This document shows, one piece after another, positions 1 to 5,898 of a stretch of 6,196 bases of DNA (positions are counted from its first letter, which is position 1; the number at the start of each line of letters is the position of its first letter). Source of the DNA: an uncultured Actinomycetes bacterium (lineage in GTDB: Bacteria; Actinomycetota; Thermoleophilia; Solirubrobacterales; 70-9); NCBI GenBank assembly GCA_946479725.1, contig CAMLHB010000146.1, positions 1 to 6,196 of the forward strand, written 5' to 3'. The translations under genes were made by a program, and so were the position numbers. The notes beneath the pieces were generated by a model that saw nothing but the letters and a program-made list of their open reading frames with translations, was not told the origin of the DNA and did not search any database.

Positions 1-627
1 CTGCGGCGCAATCGTCGCCCGCCCGACCGGCCTCTCCCCCGGCCGCTGGTAGCTCGCCGCCAGCTCGAAGAAGTTCTGGGCGATCTTCAGCCCGTACTCG
101 GTGGAGATCGACTCGGGGTGGAACTGGACGCCCCAGATCGGCCGCCTGGTGTGCTCGACCCCCATCACGACGCCGTCGTCGGACCAGGCGACGATGCTGC
201 CTTCCGGCCCGGGCGGGCTGGTGATCGCCAGCGAGTGGTAGCGGACGACCGAGAAGCCCTGCGGAACGCCTTTGAAAAGGCCCTTGCCTTCGTGCATGAC
301 CCGGCTGAGGCGACCGTGCATCGCCATCGGCGCCCGGTTGACCGTCCCCTCCAGCAGGTTGCCGATTCCCTGGTGGCCGAGGCAGATCCCGAAAACCGGG
401 ACTTCGCTCTTGCTGAGGATGTCGCTGCAGACGCCGAAGTCGTGCCAGCGCGAGGGATGCCCGGGGCCGGGCGAGAGCACGATCGCGTCGAAGTCCATCC
501 GTGTCAGCACCCGCCAGCTGACCGCGTCGTTGTTGACCACCATCGGCTCCTCGCCCGAGGCCGCGGCCAGCAGGTGGAAGACGTTGTAGGTGTAGGAATC
601 GTGGTTGTCGACCAAAAGCGTTTTCAC
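1..627 (-). CDS. PabA/TrpG-type glutamine amidotransferase, probable N-terminal half of a fused aminodeoxychorismate synthase (3' end outside window)
   Basis: Class I glutamine amidotransferase that hydrolyses glutamine and passes ammonia to a chorismate-using partner (PabB or TrpE type); cytoplasmic. I read 209 codons from a GTG start. Visible motifs are VDNHDSYTYN at residues 6-15, the oxyanion strand SPGPG at 52-56, the nucleophile elbow GICLGHQ at 80-86 (Cys82), and HPES at 170-173 (His170, Glu172), so the catalytic triad is complete. The frame stays open about 20 residues past the usual end of a stand-alone domain (NFFELAASYQRPGERP onward) to the window edge. The domain style resembles PabA-PabB fusions of actinobacteria, so a C-terminal PabB-like synthase beyond the edge is likely but unseen. 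The GTG lies one base after the stop of the synthetase-like gene, with an AGAGGGAG ribosome binding site inside that gene's last codons, suggesting translational coupling. A PABA/folate role is the default; anthranilate synthase or a specialised-metabolite enzyme are alternatives. Confidence 0.88.
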   Translation of the reverse strand, partial: MKTLLVDNHDSYTYNVFHLLAAASGEEPMVVNNDAVSWRVLTRMDFDAIVLSPGPGHPSRWHDFGVCSDILSKSEVPVFGICLGHQGIGNLLEGTVNRAPMAMHGRLSRVMHEGKGLFKGVPQGFSVVRYHSLAITSPPGPEGSIVAWSDDGVVMGVEHTRRPIWGVQFHPESISTEYGLKIAQNFFELAASYQRPGERPVGRATIAPQ

Positions 628-628
628 G

Positions 629-2323
629 TCAGGCTCCCTCTAGTCCCAGGCCGCGCAGGCCCTGCTCGAGCACCGGCTGCACGACCGCCTCGACCTCCGG
701 TGCGCGCTCGTCTTCTCGGTACCAGCGCGCGAAGTGGGAGAGGTACCTGGAGAGCGGGGCGACGTCGAACTCGTCGACGGCGCTTGCCAGGTGCACCCGG
801 TAGTGCTCCGATTGGACCACGGCGAAGCGGTAGTCCGGGTCCTCGGCCGGACGCTCGCCCTGGATCTCGGCGGAGGCGTGGTGGGCCTGCGCGCGCGCCA
901 GGTCCCAGCCAAGGCTCCCTTTTCCTTCGACCAGAAGCTTCTCCTTGCCGAACTTGACCTGCTTGGTCGTCGGCTGCAGGAGGAAGTAGCCGAGCGCGAC
1001 CTGGGCCGGCACCGTCTCGCGGTGCGGGTGGCGCGCCATCTCGGCGGCGAGCTCGGGGTTCCGGGAGAGCTCGTCCTCGAGCCACTCGACCAGGTCGTCG
1101 ATCAGCAGCGCCCCTTTCTTCGAGGAGCTGATTGATTCGTTCTCCCGCGCGACCATGCCGTGGAAGATGTCGTGGGTCGGCGGGCCTCCCCCCTTGGCGG
1201 AGCCGTTGCCGTTGCCGTTGACGAGCCCCATCTCGTCGATCAGCTTGCGGCGGCAGGTGACGTGGGCGACCCACTCGTTGCCGCAGACCTGCATCGAGAT
1301 CACGTCGTCGAGCTCGTCGGCGGCGGCCCAGTAGGCGAGCGCCCGCATGTGCTGGGTCGGCAGGCCGTCGGAGCGGACCAGCGGCATCTCTTCCAGCTCC
1401 TCGCGTTCGGTCTCGTACATGACCATGTCGTCGCCCCAGCGCTTGGTCAGGGTGCCGTCGGCGAGGCCCTGGTTCATGAACTGGGCGACCTCGGGAAGGA
1501 AGTCGGACTCGAAGATCACCTTGTCGAAGGCGATCCCCAGCCGGGCCAGGGTCTTGCGCTGGCCGGAGATCACCCAGGAGCGGGTCTTGGACCACAGTTC
1601 CAGCGCCTTCTGGTCGCCGTCGAGGACCCGCATCATCATCTCGTCGGCTTTGTCGTTGTAGCTGGTCGACTCGCGGGCGACCGAGTCCTCGGCGCCGTCG
1701 TCGCCGGCGCCGCCGTTGCGGCTGGCGGTGACATAGTCGGCGTAACAGAAGCCGACGAAGTGGTCGGACTTCTCGTCCGCGTCAGGGCCGGAGTCCTCGC
1801 CGGCGCGGGTGGCGACGCCAGCCATCGCCTCGCCCATGCTGCGGCCGACGTCGCAGATCAGGCTGCGGTTCTCGACCCTCGCCCCGGCCTGCTTGAGGGC
1901 CCCGGCGATCGCGTTGCCGACGGCGAGGTTGCGGAGGTGGCCGATGTGCAGCGCCTTGGTCGTATTGGCGCCCCAGAAGTAGACCGCGTAGCGGTTCTCG
2001 GCGGCCATCTCGGCCAGCTCGCCGATATCCCCCTCGGCGGCGCGGATCTCGCCGCCGCGGGCTTCGATCCACTCGTCGCCCAGTTTCAGCTTCGGCTGGT
2101 CGTGCTCGCGGTCGATCGCCGCCACCCAGGGCTCGGCCTCGATCCGGTCGAGCGCCGCCTTCGCCTCCTCGCTCGCCCGCCAGTCCTCGCCCTTCGGCAG
2201 CCGCGGGATCAGCATCAGGTCGAAGCCGGCCTCGGGCCGGTACGGCGCCCGCGCCGCCCACAGCGCCTTGCCGCTCTCCCCTGCCGCGACCTCGTCGAAT
2301 CTGTTGAAGATGTTCTCGCCCAT
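629..2323 (-). CDS. Divergent arginyl-tRNA synthetase-like protein
   Basis: Class Ia synthetase fold of the ArgRS family, 564 residues from the ATG, within the usual ArgRS length range. An N-terminal Add1-like region (about 1-95) is followed by the catalytic core: NTTKALHIGHLRN with HIGH at 126-129, ALELW-K-R near 240-247, RLGIAFD then FES near 262-273, and LVRSDG at 315-320. A degenerate KMSKS-like loop (SISSSKKG, 397-404) and a shortened DALR-type anticodon-binding end (about 515-564) follow. An Asn/Gly-rich loop at about 369-380 interrupts the core. By eye alignment, the Tyr and Asp that contact the guanidinium in true ArgRS (Y-x3-D) are Gln324 and Ala328, and the acidic residue five before the conserved Asn120 is Tyr115. 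Arginine specificity is therefore doubtful; it may activate another amino acid or act outside translation. I chose the ATG over an in-frame GTG at 2374 because that GTG lies in the tRNA acceptor stem. There is no clear ribosome binding site. It sits 46 bases after a tRNA gene and one base before the amidotransferase, implying an operon. Confidence 0.88.
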   Translation of the reverse strand: MGENIFNRFDEVAAGESGKALWAARAPYRPEAGFDLMLIPRLPKGEDWRASEEAKAALDRIEAEPWVAAIDREHDQPKLKLGDEWIEARGGEIRAAEGDIGELAEMAAENRYAVYFWGANTTKALHIGHLRNLAVGNAIAGALKQAGARVENRSLICDVGRSMGEAMAGVATRAGEDSGPDADEKSDHFVGFCYADYVTASRNGGAGDDGAEDSVARESTSYNDKADEMMMRVLDGDQKALELWSKTRSWVISGQRKTLARLGIAFDKVIFESDFLPEVAQFMNQGLADGTLTKRWGDDMVMYETEREELEEMPLVRSDGLPTQHMRALAYWAAADELDDVISMQVCGNEWVAHVTCRRKLIDEMGLVNGNGNGSAKGGGPPTHDIFHGMVARENESISSSKKGALLIDDLVEWLEDELSRNPELAAEMARHPHRETVPAQVALGYFLLQPTTKQVKFGKEKLLVEGKGSLGWDLARAQAHHASAEIQGERPAEDPDYRFAVVQSEHYRVHLASAVDEFDVAPLSRYLSHFARWYREDERAPEVEAVVQPVLEQGLRGLGLEGA

Positions 2324-2369: not shown

Positions 2370-2442
2370 TGCACCCGCCGGGGCTCGAACCCGGATCTTT
2401 GGCTTACAACGCCAACCCTTTAACCGATTAAGGCACGGGTGC
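2370..2442 (-). tRNA. tRNA-Thr (anticodon TGT)
   Basis: Folds as a complete cloverleaf by hand. The 7-bp acceptor stem is GCACCCG/CGGGTGC. The 4-bp D stem is CCTT/AAGG around a loop containing GG. The 5-bp anticodon stem TTGGC/GCCAA encloses loop GTTGTAA with anticodon TGT at 2406-2408. The variable loop has 4 bases, and the T stem CCGGG/CCCGG holds loop TTCGAGC. The discriminator is A at 2370 and no CCA is encoded. G1-C72, C2-G71 and G35-U36 agree with bacterial threonine identity. C10-G25 in the D stem is uncommon, since most tRNAs have G10. It reads ACA (and wobble) codons. It has its own promoter-like sequence upstream and is probably cut out of a transcript that continues into the synthetase-like gene. 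Confidence 0.93.
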
Positions 2443-2496: not shown

Positions 2497-2526
2497 AGCA
2501 TAACCACGGATCTCTATCTAAGTCAA
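2497..2526 (-). promoter_or_regulatory. Sigma-70-like promoter for the tRNA-Thr/synthetase-like unit
   Basis: On the minus strand there is a -35 TTGACT (2521-2526), an 18-base spacer, and a -10 TATGCT (2497-2502); TTATGC with a 17-base spacer is the alternative reading. Predicted start of transcription is near 2490, giving a leader of roughly 47 bases before the tRNA 5' end. The match to consensus is good for such a GC-rich genome. No other convincing promoter was seen between the XRE gene and the tRNA, so it probably serves the tRNA and, by read-through, the genes after it. Confidence 0.6.
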
Positions 2527-2625: not shown

Positions 2626-2907
2626 TCAAGGCGTGGGTTCGCCGCTCTTCGGCTGGGGAGGAGTCCCGTGCTTGGCCTCGAGGTCCTCGGCCAAGGCGGC
2701 CAGCACGGGCAGCGGCACCTTGAGGCCGGCGGCGATGCGCCGGATGTTCCCCCAGGTCGGGTTGACCCGGCCCGACTCCAGGTGCGAGATCCAGGTCGGA
2801 TGGATGCCGGCGACGAAGCCCAGCGCTTCCTGGCTCATCTGCTCTTCGCGACGGAGCTGGCGGATGGCCTTGCTGAGGCCGACTTGGGGATCGTCGCGGC
2901 GCGGCAT
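2626..2907 (-). CDS. XRE/Cro-family helix-turn-helix regulator
   Basis: A 93-residue DNA-binding protein consisting almost entirely of one HTH_3 domain (about residues 10-70). The motif runs LSKAIRQLRREEQMSQEALG, then the recognition region HPTWISHLESGRVNPTW, then the closing helix IRRIAAGLKVPLPVLAALAE. The C-terminal tail (about 75-93) is short, Pro/Gly-rich and probably unstructured. There is no ligand-binding or protease domain, so it is a minimal repressor-like protein that likely binds a palindrome as a dimer. An in-frame TAG directly before the ATG rules out an earlier start. The nearest purine-rich stretch (GGGAGGC) is about 20 bases upstream, too far for a normal ribosome binding site, so initiation may be weak or leaderless. 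Downstream lies the tRNA-Thr promoter with a perfect palindrome; upstream lies an SOS-box-like sequence. The target is inferred from position only. Confidence 0.87.
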   Translation of the reverse strand: MPRRDDPQVGLSKAIRQLRREEQMSQEALGFVAGIHPTWISHLESGRVNPTWGNIRRIAAGLKVPLPVLAALAEDLEAKHGTPPQPKSGEPTP

Positions 2908-3111: not shown

Positions 3112-4425
3112 TCAGCCGGCTTCCGCTCGAGCCGCCGCCAGCTCTTCTTCCACCGTGCCCGTCTGGTTCGGGATTTCCAGGCGCTTTTCCAGCACCGGGA
3201 CCGCCTCTTCCGGGCGGCCGCTGAGGCGCAGGGCGTTGCCGAGGTTGAAGAGCGCGTAGGCATAGGAGAGTTCTTCGCTGTCCGCGGGGAAGGCGGCGAC
3301 GGCTTCTTCGAGCACGGGGACGGCGGCTTCGTATTCGCCCGCCTGGATCAGTTCGTAGCCCTGTTCGTTGAGGGAGGCGCCGAGTTCGGGGTCGGTGCCT
3401 TCGGCGCTCGCGACCGGGATGCTCGCTTCGGCTTCTTCGGCCCCCGCTCCCTCTACCGGCGCCGGCTTCGGCTTCGGTTTCGCTTTTGCCTCCGCTTTCG
3501 GTTTCGCGTTCGCCGCCTGCCGCCCTCCCTTGTCCTTGCCGCTGGGGTCGCTGCCGCCGAGAGCGACCAGGATCACCACCGCGACCGCGGCGATCATCGC
3601 CAGCAGGGCGACGAACGCGCCGGTCCGGCTCGATCGCGACCCGCGAGGCTGGATCGGCGGCGGCTCGAACACCTGGGTCGGCTGTTCCACGACCGGCGGC
3701 GGGACCGGCCGATCGAGGCTGACAAGCGCCGCCTGCGCCGAGGCGGGACGATCTGCCGGGTCCTCCTCGGTCAGGCGCTCGACCAGCCCCTCGAGGGCAC
3801 ACGAGCGGTTCCCCCGGCAGCCGCGCAGGACCACGCCCAGCGAGTAGAGGTCGGATCGCTCACTCGCCGGCCGTCCTTCCATCACCTCCGGCGCGGCGAA
3901 GCGCTCGGTGGCGAGGATCAGCCCCGTCTTCGTCATCGCCGTGGCGTCGAGCGGCTGGGCAATCCCGAAGTCGATCAGCTTCGCCGTCCCGCCCGGTTCG
4001 ACGATGATGTTGCCGGGCTTGACGTCGCGGTGGAGGATGCCGGCGCCGTGGATGTGGGCCAGCGCCTCCAGCATCTGCCGCGCCAGCCTGTCGCAGTCCA
4101 CCCCCCGCCCCCGTTCCAGCAGCTCCGCCAGGCTCTCGCCCGGCACGAACTGCATCACCAGGTAGGGCCGTTCCCCCTCTTCGGAGAAGTCGTAGACGCC
4201 GACCAGATTGGGATGCGAGACCCCCGCCGCCGTCTGCGCCTCGCGCCGGAAGCGGGCGACGAAGCCCGGGTCGGCGGCGATCGTGTCGGCCAGCACCTTC
4301 ACCGCGACCGGCCGCTCCAGCACCTCGTCCTGCCCGAGCCACACCGCGGCCATGCCGCCGCGCCCGAGCGTACGCTCGAGCCGGTAGCGGTCCTTCAGCA
4401 ACTCCCCGGTGCCGATCGTGGCCAC
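3112..4425 (-). CDS. Transmembrane Ser/Thr protein kinase (PknB-like) with extracytoplasmic TPR region
   Basis: A 437-residue Hanks-type kinase. The glycine loop is GRGGMAAVW (21-29), ATP-binding Lys43 lies in AVKVL, the helix-C Glu is Glu62, the catalytic loop HRDVKPGNI (132-140) has Asp134, DFG is at 152-154 and APE at 178-180. All catalytic residues are present, so it should be active. After SDLYSLGVVL (191-200) the C-lobe jumps to LVERLTEEDPADRP; this part is about 30 residues shorter than in PknB. A Pro-rich juxtamembrane stretch (240-260) leads to one membrane span (about 269-289), a Lys/Pro/Ala-rich linker (300-323) and a C-terminal TPR-like region (about 350-415), predicted outside the cell as a sensor or scaffold in place of PASTA repeats. 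The start is GTG, preceded by an AGAGGAAG ribosome binding site. The NTF2-like gene lies 48 bases upstream on the same strand. Substrates cannot be inferred. Confidence 0.92.
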   Translation of the reverse strand: MATIGTGELLKDRYRLERTLGRGGMAAVWLGQDEVLERPVAVKVLADTIAADPGFVARFRREAQTAAGVSHPNLVGVYDFSEEGERPYLVMQFVPGESLAELLERGRGVDCDRLARQMLEALAHIHGAGILHRDVKPGNIIVEPGGTAKLIDFGIAQPLDATAMTKTGLILATERFAAPEVMEGRPASERSDLYSLGVVLRGCRGNRSCALEGLVERLTEEDPADRPASAQAALVSLDRPVPPPVVEQPTQVFEPPPIQPRGSRSSRTGAFVALLAMIAAVAVVILVALGGSDPSGKDKGGRQAANAKPKAEAKAKPKPKPAPVEGAGAEEAEASIPVASAEGTDPELGASLNEQGYELIQAGEYEAAVPVLEEAVAAFPADSEELSYAYALFNLGNALRLSGRPEEAVPVLEKRLEIPNQTGTVEEELAAARAEAG

Positions 4426-4473: not shown

Positions 4474-4884
4474 TCAGCCGCGCAGCGCGCGCCAGACCAT
4501 GCCCGGCCGCACGCCGACCTTCGGCCCGAGCACGAGGGCGAAGAGGGTGAGTGCCAGCCAGGGGCGCAGGTGGGGACCGATGCGGCGGATCCGGCCCTCG
4601 GCGTCGAGGTCGAAGACCATCGCGTCGGTCAGACGGACGCCGAGCAGGCGCGCTTCGCCGACCATCACCCGGCGGGGCCCCTCGCCGAGGCAGTCCGTCC
4701 AGCGCAGGCCCTTGAGGCTGCCGTAGACCGCGGCGAGGAGGACCTCGACGTCCTTCTCCCCGCGGAAGACCATCCGTCCCGAGATCGGCGAGACCAGCTC
4801 GACGTCGGGCGCCAGCGCCGCCATCATGCCGCTGACGTCGCCGGCCTCCGAAGCGGTCCGGTACTGCTCGAGCGCGTCGGCCAT
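4474..4884 (-). CDS. NTF2/SnoaL-like small protein
   Basis: A 136-residue protein with the start typical of the SnoaL/NTF2 fold: an N-terminal helix (EQYRTASEAGDVSGMMAALA, 6-25), then APDVELVSPISGRMVFRGEK (25-44). This is the helix followed by a cone-forming beta strand seen in polyketide cyclase-like and nuclear transport factor 2-like proteins. Beta strands continue to about residue 103 (MVFDLDAEGRIRRI). The end (105-128, LRPWLALTLFALVLG) is hydrophobic and followed by basic residues, and may be a membrane-associating tail or pack against the cone. No catalytic residues can be assigned, and the family is functionally mixed. There is no ribosome binding site before the ATG, but a TANNNT element (TATCGT, 4891-4896) ends six bases upstream, so a leaderless transcript is likely. 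It precedes the kinase gene by 48 bases and may be co-transcribed with it. Confidence 0.82.
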   Translation of the reverse strand: MADALEQYRTASEAGDVSGMMAALAPDVELVSPISGRMVFRGEKDVEVLLAAVYGSLKGLRWTDCLGEGPRRVMVGEARLLGVRLTDAMVFDLDAEGRIRRIGPHLRPWLALTLFALVLGPKVGVRPGMVWRALRG

Positions 4885-5099: not shown

Positions 5100-5537
5100 A
5101 TGGGAATCCAGCGCATGGAACACGTGGGGATCGTCGTCGAGGACCTCGACGCGGCGATCGAGTTCTTCACCCAGCTCGGCCTCGAGTCCTCCGGCAAGGG
5201 CCAGGTCGAAGGTGACTGGGTGGGCCGGATCATCGGCCTCGACGACGTCGAGGCCGAAATGGCGATGATGCGCGCCCCCGACGGCCCGACCGAGATCGAG
5301 CTGGTGAAGTTCCACAACCCCCCAGCCCAGGCCAGCGACTCCACCGGCCCTTCCAACGCCCTCGGCCTCCGCCACATCACTTTCCTCGTCGAGGACATCC
5401 ACGCCGTCGTCGAGGGTCTCGAAGCCCGCGGCACCGAGCTCGTCGGCGAGCTGGTCCGCTACGAGGACATCTACGAACTCTGTTACGTCCGTGGCCCCGA
5501 GGGCATCATCGTCGAGCTGGCGGAGAAACTGTCCTGA
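5100..5537 (+). CDS. VOC-superfamily (glyoxalase/bleomycin-resistance fold) protein
   Basis: A 145-residue protein with two beta-alpha-beta-beta-beta modules. The first opens with RMEHVGIVVEDLDAAIEFFT (5-24) and closes with TEIELVKFHNP; the second opens with GLRHITFLVEDIHAVVEGL and closes with PEGIIVELAEKL. The four positions that bind a divalent metal in this superfamily are filled: His8, Glu67, His92 and Glu139. A metal-dependent lyase, epimerase (methylmalonyl-CoA epimerase-like) or dioxygenase activity is therefore plausible; the substrate is unknown. An in-frame TTG at 5073 would add nine residues (MAPFHTIGR) outside the conserved fold, so I prefer the ATG at 5100, which has a -10-like element at leaderless spacing. 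It is divergent from the NTF2-like gene and 85 bases before the next plus-strand gene. Confidence 0.88.
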   Translation: MGIQRMEHVGIVVEDLDAAIEFFTQLGLESSGKGQVEGDWVGRIIGLDDVEAEMAMMRAPDGPTEIELVKFHNPPAQASDSTGPSNALGLRHITFLVEDIHAVVEGLEARGTELVGELVRYEDIYELCYVRGPEGIIVELAEKLS

Positions 5538-5622: not shown

Positions 5623-5898
5623 ATGAGTGTCCTGATCCGCTTTGCCCCCTCTGCCCTGACGACCGCTCAGTACGACGAGTCCGTCCGCAAGCTCGAAGCC
5701 GCCGGTGACTTCCCCCCCGACGGACTCGACTACCACGTCTGCTTCGGCACCGAGGGAAGCCTTCGCGTCAGCGAGATCTGGGATTCCCGGCAGCAGCTCG
5801 ACGCATTTGGCGAGCGACTGATGCCTGTCCTTGCCGAGGTCGGCATCGACCCCGGTGAGCCGGAAATCATTGAGATCCACAACATCGTCAAGCGCTGA
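5623..5898 (+). CDS. Small dimeric alpha-beta barrel (ABM-like) protein
   Basis: A 91-residue protein with the layout of the antibiotic biosynthesis monooxygenase / dimeric alpha-beta barrel fold. The first strand is SVLIRFAPSALTTAQYDESV, then a helix (14-27), GLDYHVCFG (34-42), the strand LRVSEIWDS (47-55) with the EIW signature, the helix QQLDAFGERLMPVLAEVG (57-74), and the last strand PEIIEIHNIVK (80-90). Such proteins form dimers with a pocket for a small aromatic or lipid-like ligand. Most small stand-alone members have no proven activity, and none can be assigned here. His38 and Trp53 are pocket candidates by position. The start is secure: AAGGAGG lies six bases before the ATG, the best ribosome binding site in the window. 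A TANNNT element (TATTGT, 5551-5556) is a possible promoter, giving a leader that carries the GNRA hairpin. Confidence 0.82.
   Translation: MSVLIRFAPSALTTAQYDESVRKLEAAGDFPPDGLDYHVCFGTEGSLRVSEIWDSRQQLDAFGERLMPVLAEVGIDPGEPEIIEIHNIVKR

Follow-up and report, generated by a model that had tools for sequence, protein, structure and literature searches.

To our knowledge, natural pairs of an aminoacyl-tRNA synthetase and a private tRNA are few. The pyrrolysine cassette consists of PylRS, a synthetase of class II fold, tRNAPyl, which carries a CUA anticodon, and the genes of pyrrolysine biosynthesis. In Streptomyces, the duplicated synthetase ProRSx is encoded adjacent to tRNAProX, which has a conserved body and a varying anticodon, and the canonical synthetase lies elsewhere (available portions of PMC10365949 and PMC11415595). 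In Desulfobacterales, an extra synthetase isoform, CysRS*, is coupled to an extra tRNA, SelC*, and the available part of PMC9437257 describes both ProRSx and CysRS* as retaining the parent amino acid. Here we describe a stretch of 6,196 nucleotides (the window) from an uncultured bacterium of the Solirubrobacterales (contig CAMLHB010000146.1), in which a synthetase paralogue derived from ArgRS (SYN) lies beside a tRNA and in front of a biosynthetic operon. The two are best explained as a dedicated pair that likely charges a noncanonical amino acid, probably of the p-aminophenylalanine type.

Private synthetase/tRNA pairs are thus already known, and the SYN pair differs from them in ancestry, pocket and operon. 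Like ProRSx/tRNAProX, SYN is a synthetase duplicate that has a neighbouring tRNA of its own, with a conserved body and a variable anticodon, and relatives also carry a canonical synthetase; unlike ProRSx, it derives from ArgRS, has a changed pocket and has a biosynthetic operon behind it. In layout the locus resembles the pyrrolysine cassette, as a private tRNA, a private synthetase and apparent amino-acid genes stand together, but SYN has the class I ArgRS fold and the tRNAs have sense-codon anticodons (UGU in the window) and not CUA. As with CysRS*/SelC*, an extra synthetase is coupled to an extra tRNA; CysRS*, which is without an anticodon-binding domain, still uses cysteine, whereas the SYN pocket is changed. 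The dnacin B1 (DinV) p-aminophenylalanine cluster also places an aminodeoxychorismate synthase in an actinobacterial cluster, but no synthetase/tRNA pair is described there in the available portion of PMC7570522. Among the matches listed from open-licence PubMed Central, nothing names the SYN/tRNA pair. The accessible text of PMC8629427 does not mention Conexibacter, Thermoleophilia, Solirubrobacter or Actinobacteria, that of PMC12945691 does not mention ArgRS, and that of PMC7609411 does not mention ArgRS, Conexibacter or Solirubrobacter.

SYN and its key positions lie in the window as follows.
629..2323, minus strand: ArgRS-derived synthetase paralogue (SYN), 564 residues, below the argS equivalog cut-off
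1979..1981, minus strand: codon of Tyr115, at the position of Glu148 of yeast ArgRS
1955..1957, minus strand: codon of Lys123, the HIGH-loop lysine, at the position of yeast Lys156
1937..1948, minus strand: HIGH motif, residues 126-129
1352..1354, minus strand: codon of Gln324, at the position of yeast Tyr347
1340..1342, minus strand: codon of Ala328, at the position of yeast Asp351
1121..1135, minus strand: KMSKS-like loop SISSS, residues 397-401

The amino-acid pocket of SYN is confirmed to be altered at the arginine-contacting positions. The initial annotation, made from the letters alone, had described an ArgRS-fold protein that keeps HIGH and the VRSDG region, with Gln324 and Ala328 in place of the conserved Y-x3-D pair and Tyr115 in place of an acidic residue, and each of these points stands. 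The predicted model has the ArgRS fold over its full length, HIGH, the VRSDG region and Asn120 are retained as in canonical bacterial ArgRS (TIGR00456), and the alignment places Tyr115, Gln324 and Ala328 at yeast E148, Y347 and D351. This alignment used 6 of 15 canonical argS loci, leaving out L007, L191 and L192 (no open reading frame) and L008, L193, L196, L198, L199 and L201 (wrong frame). Two sequences from Methanomicrobiales (L004 and L005, 27-28% identity) retain the Tyr/Asp pair and were excluded from the paralogue family. Some canonical-type ArgRS of these genomes deviate at HIGH themselves (L006 and L194, with HVGT or HVGG; L200, with no recognisable HIGH). The altered KMSKS-like loop, whose missing first Lys the initial annotation had noted, is no evidence of lost function, because the HIGH-loop lysine Lys123, which we take to be equivalent in role to yeast Lys156, is present.

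SYN also departs from canonical ArgRS by profile. It scores 88.7 bits against the argS equivalog TIGR00456, for which the cut-off is 261.65, and 18 paralogue matches in relatives score 62.9-105.2 bits, all below it. Pfam recognises PF00750 only, at a low 25.7 bits, and neither the DALR nor the N-domain profile; neither was matched in any of six class-sample paralogues tested (0 of 6), whereas both were found in 3 of 3 canonical ArgRS tested from paralogue-bearing genomes (DALR_1 at 95-122 bits). The distant paralogue L268 has a weak DALR match of 18.4 bits, under the cut-off. The nearest relatives in genomes are metagenome-assembled Solirubrobacterales, Actinobacteria and Thermoleophilia, at 70-91% protein identity.

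The paralogue is an addition to the ordinary enzyme. In our sample of 299 genomes of the class, with the paralogue called at E <1e-60, it occurs in 15 (17 matches, plus an extra copy in G291 at 1.7e-35); some match at 1e-3 occurs in 181 of the 299, presumably mostly ordinary argS. The second, canonical argS that the initial annotation had proposed to look for is present, above the family cut-off, in all 15 paralogue-bearing relatives checked, a set that did not include the source genome, G570 or three further paralogue genomes (G315, G317 and G318). The paralogue seems to be rare outside the class: when a phylum sample of 396 genomes was queried with the Conexibacter protein (three candidates scored in each), only 2 matched at 1e-25, Conexibacter woesei (G200) itself and G570 (29% identity). 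An 845-residue protein, P0212, is listed as combining methyltransferase domains with PF00750 on a single chain and is 72% identical to the Conexibacter paralogue.

Upstream of SYN lies the element that the initial annotation had missed.
2370..2442, minus strand: dedicated tRNA with anticodon UGU, on which basis ARAGORN names it tRNA-Thr; its 3' end lies 46 nucleotides upstream of the SYN start
2406..2408, minus strand: anticodon TGT of this tRNA
2497..2526, minus strand: promoter-like site TTGACT-18-TATGCT, preceding the tRNA (one such site against 0.2 expected)

The adjacent dedicated tRNA argues that SYN still charges a tRNA, and it is the strongest evidence for the proposal, made in the initial annotation, that the enzyme activates a different amino acid or supplies a pathway. 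That proposal is further favoured by the pocket change, the second argS and the position of the gene at the head of a biosynthetic operon; its KMSKS argument falls away, and the function itself remains a prediction from sequence. The promoter-like site, together with a TTATG that precedes the tRNA at all 10 UGU-type loci compared (the window being one of them), indicates that tRNA and SYN are probably on one transcript. The short leader between promoter and tRNA (2443-2496) contains an inverted repeat, TTGAGC...GCTCA. It also holds the motif CAATCAGG, which occurs in 7 of the 10 UGU-type loci.

A tRNA is adjacent to the paralogue, or within its cluster, at 14 of 18 class-sample loci. Its anticodon is UGU at L001-L003 and L045-L047, UAA at L048-L050, AGU at L052, UCU at L053-L055 and CCU at L057, and three further family members (L244-L246) have a UGU tRNA upstream. 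At 13 of 15 measured loci, window included, the tRNA ends 24-69 nucleotides before the chosen synthetase start; the exceptions are L048, with the tRNA about 4 kb off inside the cluster, and L057, with a divergent tRNA. With the anticodon arm left out, the tRNA of the window is 0.89 identical to the L049 UAA tRNA and 0.80 to the AGU tRNA, and the nearest ordinary tRNA in G001, G154 and G200 reaches 0.70 to it. This is a private tRNA family in which the body is conserved and the anticodon changes (UGU, UAA, AGU). Membership is not clear for the CCU tRNA (0.70-0.80 to the window, UAA and AGU tRNAs, 0.79 to ordinary tRNA-Lys) or the UCU tRNA (0.77 at best to the family, 0.76 to ordinary tRNA-Thr). 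Because the tRNA body is kept through anticodon changes and the anticodon domain of the synthetase has diverged, SYN may well recognise its partner independently of the anticodon.

The tRNA family and the paralogue co-occur. As a DNA query against 50 genomes of the family of G001, the window tRNA gives full-length matches (86-96%) in all 9 genomes with the paralogue and in no other; weaker matches (2e-6 to 8.5e-4) occur in 4 other genomes, and G318 has an extra 43-nucleotide piece. For the UAA tRNA, with three candidates scored per genome, full-length matches at E 6.6e-11 or below are confined to 10 of the 299 class genomes, namely those with a paralogue about 49% or more identical to that of the window; 8 more have matches of 1.8e-4 to 8.5e-4. 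In both genomes examined for this, the private tRNA is an extra beside the normal isoacceptor: G001 (48 tRNA hits) has an ordinary tRNA-Thr(UGU) and G154 (41 tRNA hits) an ordinary long-arm tRNA-Leu(UAA). By eye, several tRNAs have an enlarged D-arm (L081:1501-1596, L154:1500-1596, L056:5030-5230 on the minus strand and L268:460-550), that of L056 seemingly with an insertion of more than 100 nucleotides; ARAGORN misnames or misses such tRNAs, and those of G001 and G154 resemble an otherwise unlisted tRNA-Glu(UUC).

Behind SYN, one base past its end, starts the frame of an enzyme cut by the end of the window.
1..627, minus strand: aminodeoxychorismate synthase, first 209 residues (glutamine amidotransferase part)

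This fragment is 97% identical to L001:9697-11865, which passes the pabB model TIGR00553 (351.1 over 328.4 bits). We compared loci by tblastn with the L001 cluster, several loci ending at contig ends. Aminodeoxychorismate synthase is directly downstream in the window and in 10 of 11 loci with close paralogues (49-91% identical), and in 0 of 7 more distant ones. The ten loci further contain a GNAT gene (9), a deacetylase nearest to acetylpolyamine amidohydrolase (7), a chorismate mutase that matches solved mutases weakly at 25.7 bits (8), a P450 (7, on the opposite side in L049) and an enzyme like lysine/ornithine monooxygenases (5: L001, L003, L046, L047 and L052), nearest to L-lysine monooxygenase 4d7e at 203 bits. 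Since an aminodeoxychorismate synthase is given a role in making p-aminophenylalanine in dnacin B1 (available portion of PMC7570522), the operon product is probably a p-aminophenylalanine-type amino acid, and this product would be the amino acid that SYN charges.

We propose the following mechanism. SYN, having evolved from ArgRS, would still form an aminoacyl adenylate with ATP and load a tRNA, would no longer fit arginine in its pocket, and would read the body of its partner tRNA and not the anticodon. Its substrate would most likely be a noncanonical aromatic amino acid made by the operon: aminodeoxychorismate synthase would convert chorismate to 4-amino-4-deoxychorismate, chorismate mutase would rearrange this towards a p-aminophenylalanine-type amino acid, and GNAT and deacetylase (the amine perhaps being masked, then unmasked), P450 and N-monooxygenase would tailor it. 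The charged tRNA would then either feed a tRNA-dependent biosynthetic step, which we favour by a modest margin, or be used in translation, reading a very rare codon on the ribosome.

Codon usage is relevant to the second route. Ranked out of 61 in 8 genomes, the codons read by operon-type private tRNAs are very rare: ACA ranks 2, 3, 5 and 4 in four genomes, TTA ranks 1 in three, and ACT ranks 9 in one (3 of 3409 codons). Such a codon fits either avoidance of harm or use at a rare codon. Other types of the tRNA read non-rare codons (AGG, rank 21 in G231; AGA, rank 32 in G200), and these counts restrict a rare-codon anticodon to the operon type, so that it does not hold as a general rule. Within the operon, ACA occurs at codon 42 of aminodeoxychorismate synthase in the window and L001, not in L003. 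A NUDIX-family gene behind the operon has two ACA codons in each of L221:1213-1683, L222:5150-5641 and L223:13901-14380 (minus strand) and none in L220; those at codons ~3 and ~109 are each common to two loci, and ACA is otherwise very rare there.

In other branches the neighbours of the paralogue switch. Genes for lysine 5,6-aminomutase alpha and beta lie beside it in 4 of 4 loci (L056:7098-12465, L057, L058 and L059; alpha scores 758 over 600 bits in L056), suggesting another noncanonical amino acid. At L053-L055 (3 of 3), two methyltransferase genes and one for an ATP-grasp ligase come after the paralogue. This switching by branch to different small-molecule enzymes fits a family retargeted, branch by branch, to self-made amino acids. 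A more far-reaching reading, which we hold to be doubtful though worth stating, is that of a natural genetic-code-expansion cassette unrelated to pyrrolysine or selenocysteine, in which self-made amino acids (aminodeoxychorismate-derived, aminomutase-derived or methylated, depending on the branch) would be carried on private tRNAs and the clade of the window would insert its own at very rare sense codons in some proteins or peptides.

Several observations weigh against a dedicated pair for an operon-made amino acid. No tRNA was found next to the paralogue gene in L051, L056, L058 and L059 or in the distant L268, and the close paralogue L051 has no aminodeoxychorismate synthase nearby either; this locus (G189:C59) is a second close copy in G189 and adjoins a 213-residue protein without a Pfam match. 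The tblastn comparison gave no deacetylase in L049 or L050, and among the operon genes scanned there was no PapC-like prephenate dehydrogenase and no clear tRNA-dependent transferase. Alignment of special codons across the operon genes pointed to no clear client protein. ACA avoidance, considered as a sign of ambiguity on the ribosome, was dropped, as ACA/Thr runs from 0.000 to 0.014 in 9 pair-bearing genomes and from 0.011 to 0.044 in 5 genomes of the same family that lack the pair; these ranges overlap, and they come from home-made gene calls with one control of only 1584 codons. In Conexibacter woesei (46 tRNA hits), no UCU tRNA was found besides the paired one. AGA is well used there, and of the residues with which it aligns Arg is the most frequent, at 0.32 of 137 positions (controls: CGC 0.54 of 1132 and AGG 0.33 of 26 in the same genome; AGA 0.40, 0.19 and 0.61 on 15, 14 and 12 positions elsewhere). 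Because AGA aligns mostly with Arg, the Conexibacter pair may serve ordinary translation. Several genomes, L001-L003 among them, are metagenome-assembled; misassembly is unlikely, because the same layout recurs in many such genomes.

In this Conexibacter genome (L055, L224-L233), AGA stands at 71 per 10,000 codons at 73% GC, four times AGG, and the D-loop of the single UCU tRNA does not have the GGATA seen in the remaining Arg tRNAs. A special role of AGA in the paralogue gene was dismissed, as whole-locus counts show AGA to be common there.

The best surviving rival, which we judge unlikely, is deliberate mistranslation of the ProRSx/tRNAProX type, in which a standard amino acid, be it arginine or one of the other nineteen, on a tRNA with a foreign anticodon would give statistical proteins at rare codons. 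It would account for a paralogue beside an odd tRNA with a kept body and varying anticodon, including A34 (AGU in L052), as reported for ProRSx (available portions of PMC10365949 and PMC11415595), and by its Rfam score of 66.2 bits the window tRNA looks like any ordinary tRNA. However, ProRSx keeps the parent amino acid (PMC9437257, in part), whereas the guanidinium contacts of SYN are gone, and SYN heads a conserved biosynthetic operon, none being reported for ProRSx in the accessible text of PMC10365949, PMC11415595 and PMC9437257.

Less probable again is that SYN is no longer a tRNA synthetase and acts as an amino-acid ligase on a small molecule or a protein, the tRNA being a mere neighbour. 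MshC, which is related to CysRS, is an amino-acid ligase of this kind acting on a small molecule; the dedicated tRNA beside SYN argues for continued charging. We consider it very improbable that SYN is a divergent ArgRS isoenzyme that still uses arginine and charges it to an alternative tRNA. Although it has the ArgRS fold, and the Conexibacter tRNA reads AGA, a codon that there aligns with Arg above all, the equivalents of E148, Y347 and D351 are lost, the anticodons UGU, UAA and AGU are not those of Arg, and the equivalog score falls far below its cut-off. Finally, that SYN is an argS duplicate in decay and its tRNA neighbour a stray, as the low Pfam score might suggest, is hardly credible, as the frame of about 560 residues is open at 85-95% identity among the best 120 homologues, no internal stops occur in the paralogue matches listed, and gene order is held down to about 50% paralogue identity.

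The remaining genes of the window are ordinary neighbours, assigned by Pfam where a match exists.
2626-2907, minus strand: helix-turn-helix regulator
3112-4425, minus strand: Ser/Thr kinase with tetratricopeptide repeats
4474-4884, minus strand: SnoaL-like protein
5100-5537, plus strand: glyoxalase-like protein
5623-5898, plus strand: small protein without a Pfam match

If a dedicated pair for a noncanonical amino acid is indeed present, it would provide synthetic biology with a class I pair tolerant of anticodon change. The SYN pair would make the question of another encoded amino acid directly testable. With its rebuilt pocket, its link to an operon for an unusual amino acid and its retention in many members of a single bacterial class, it would also show how a standard synthetase can be redirected to a different amino acid.
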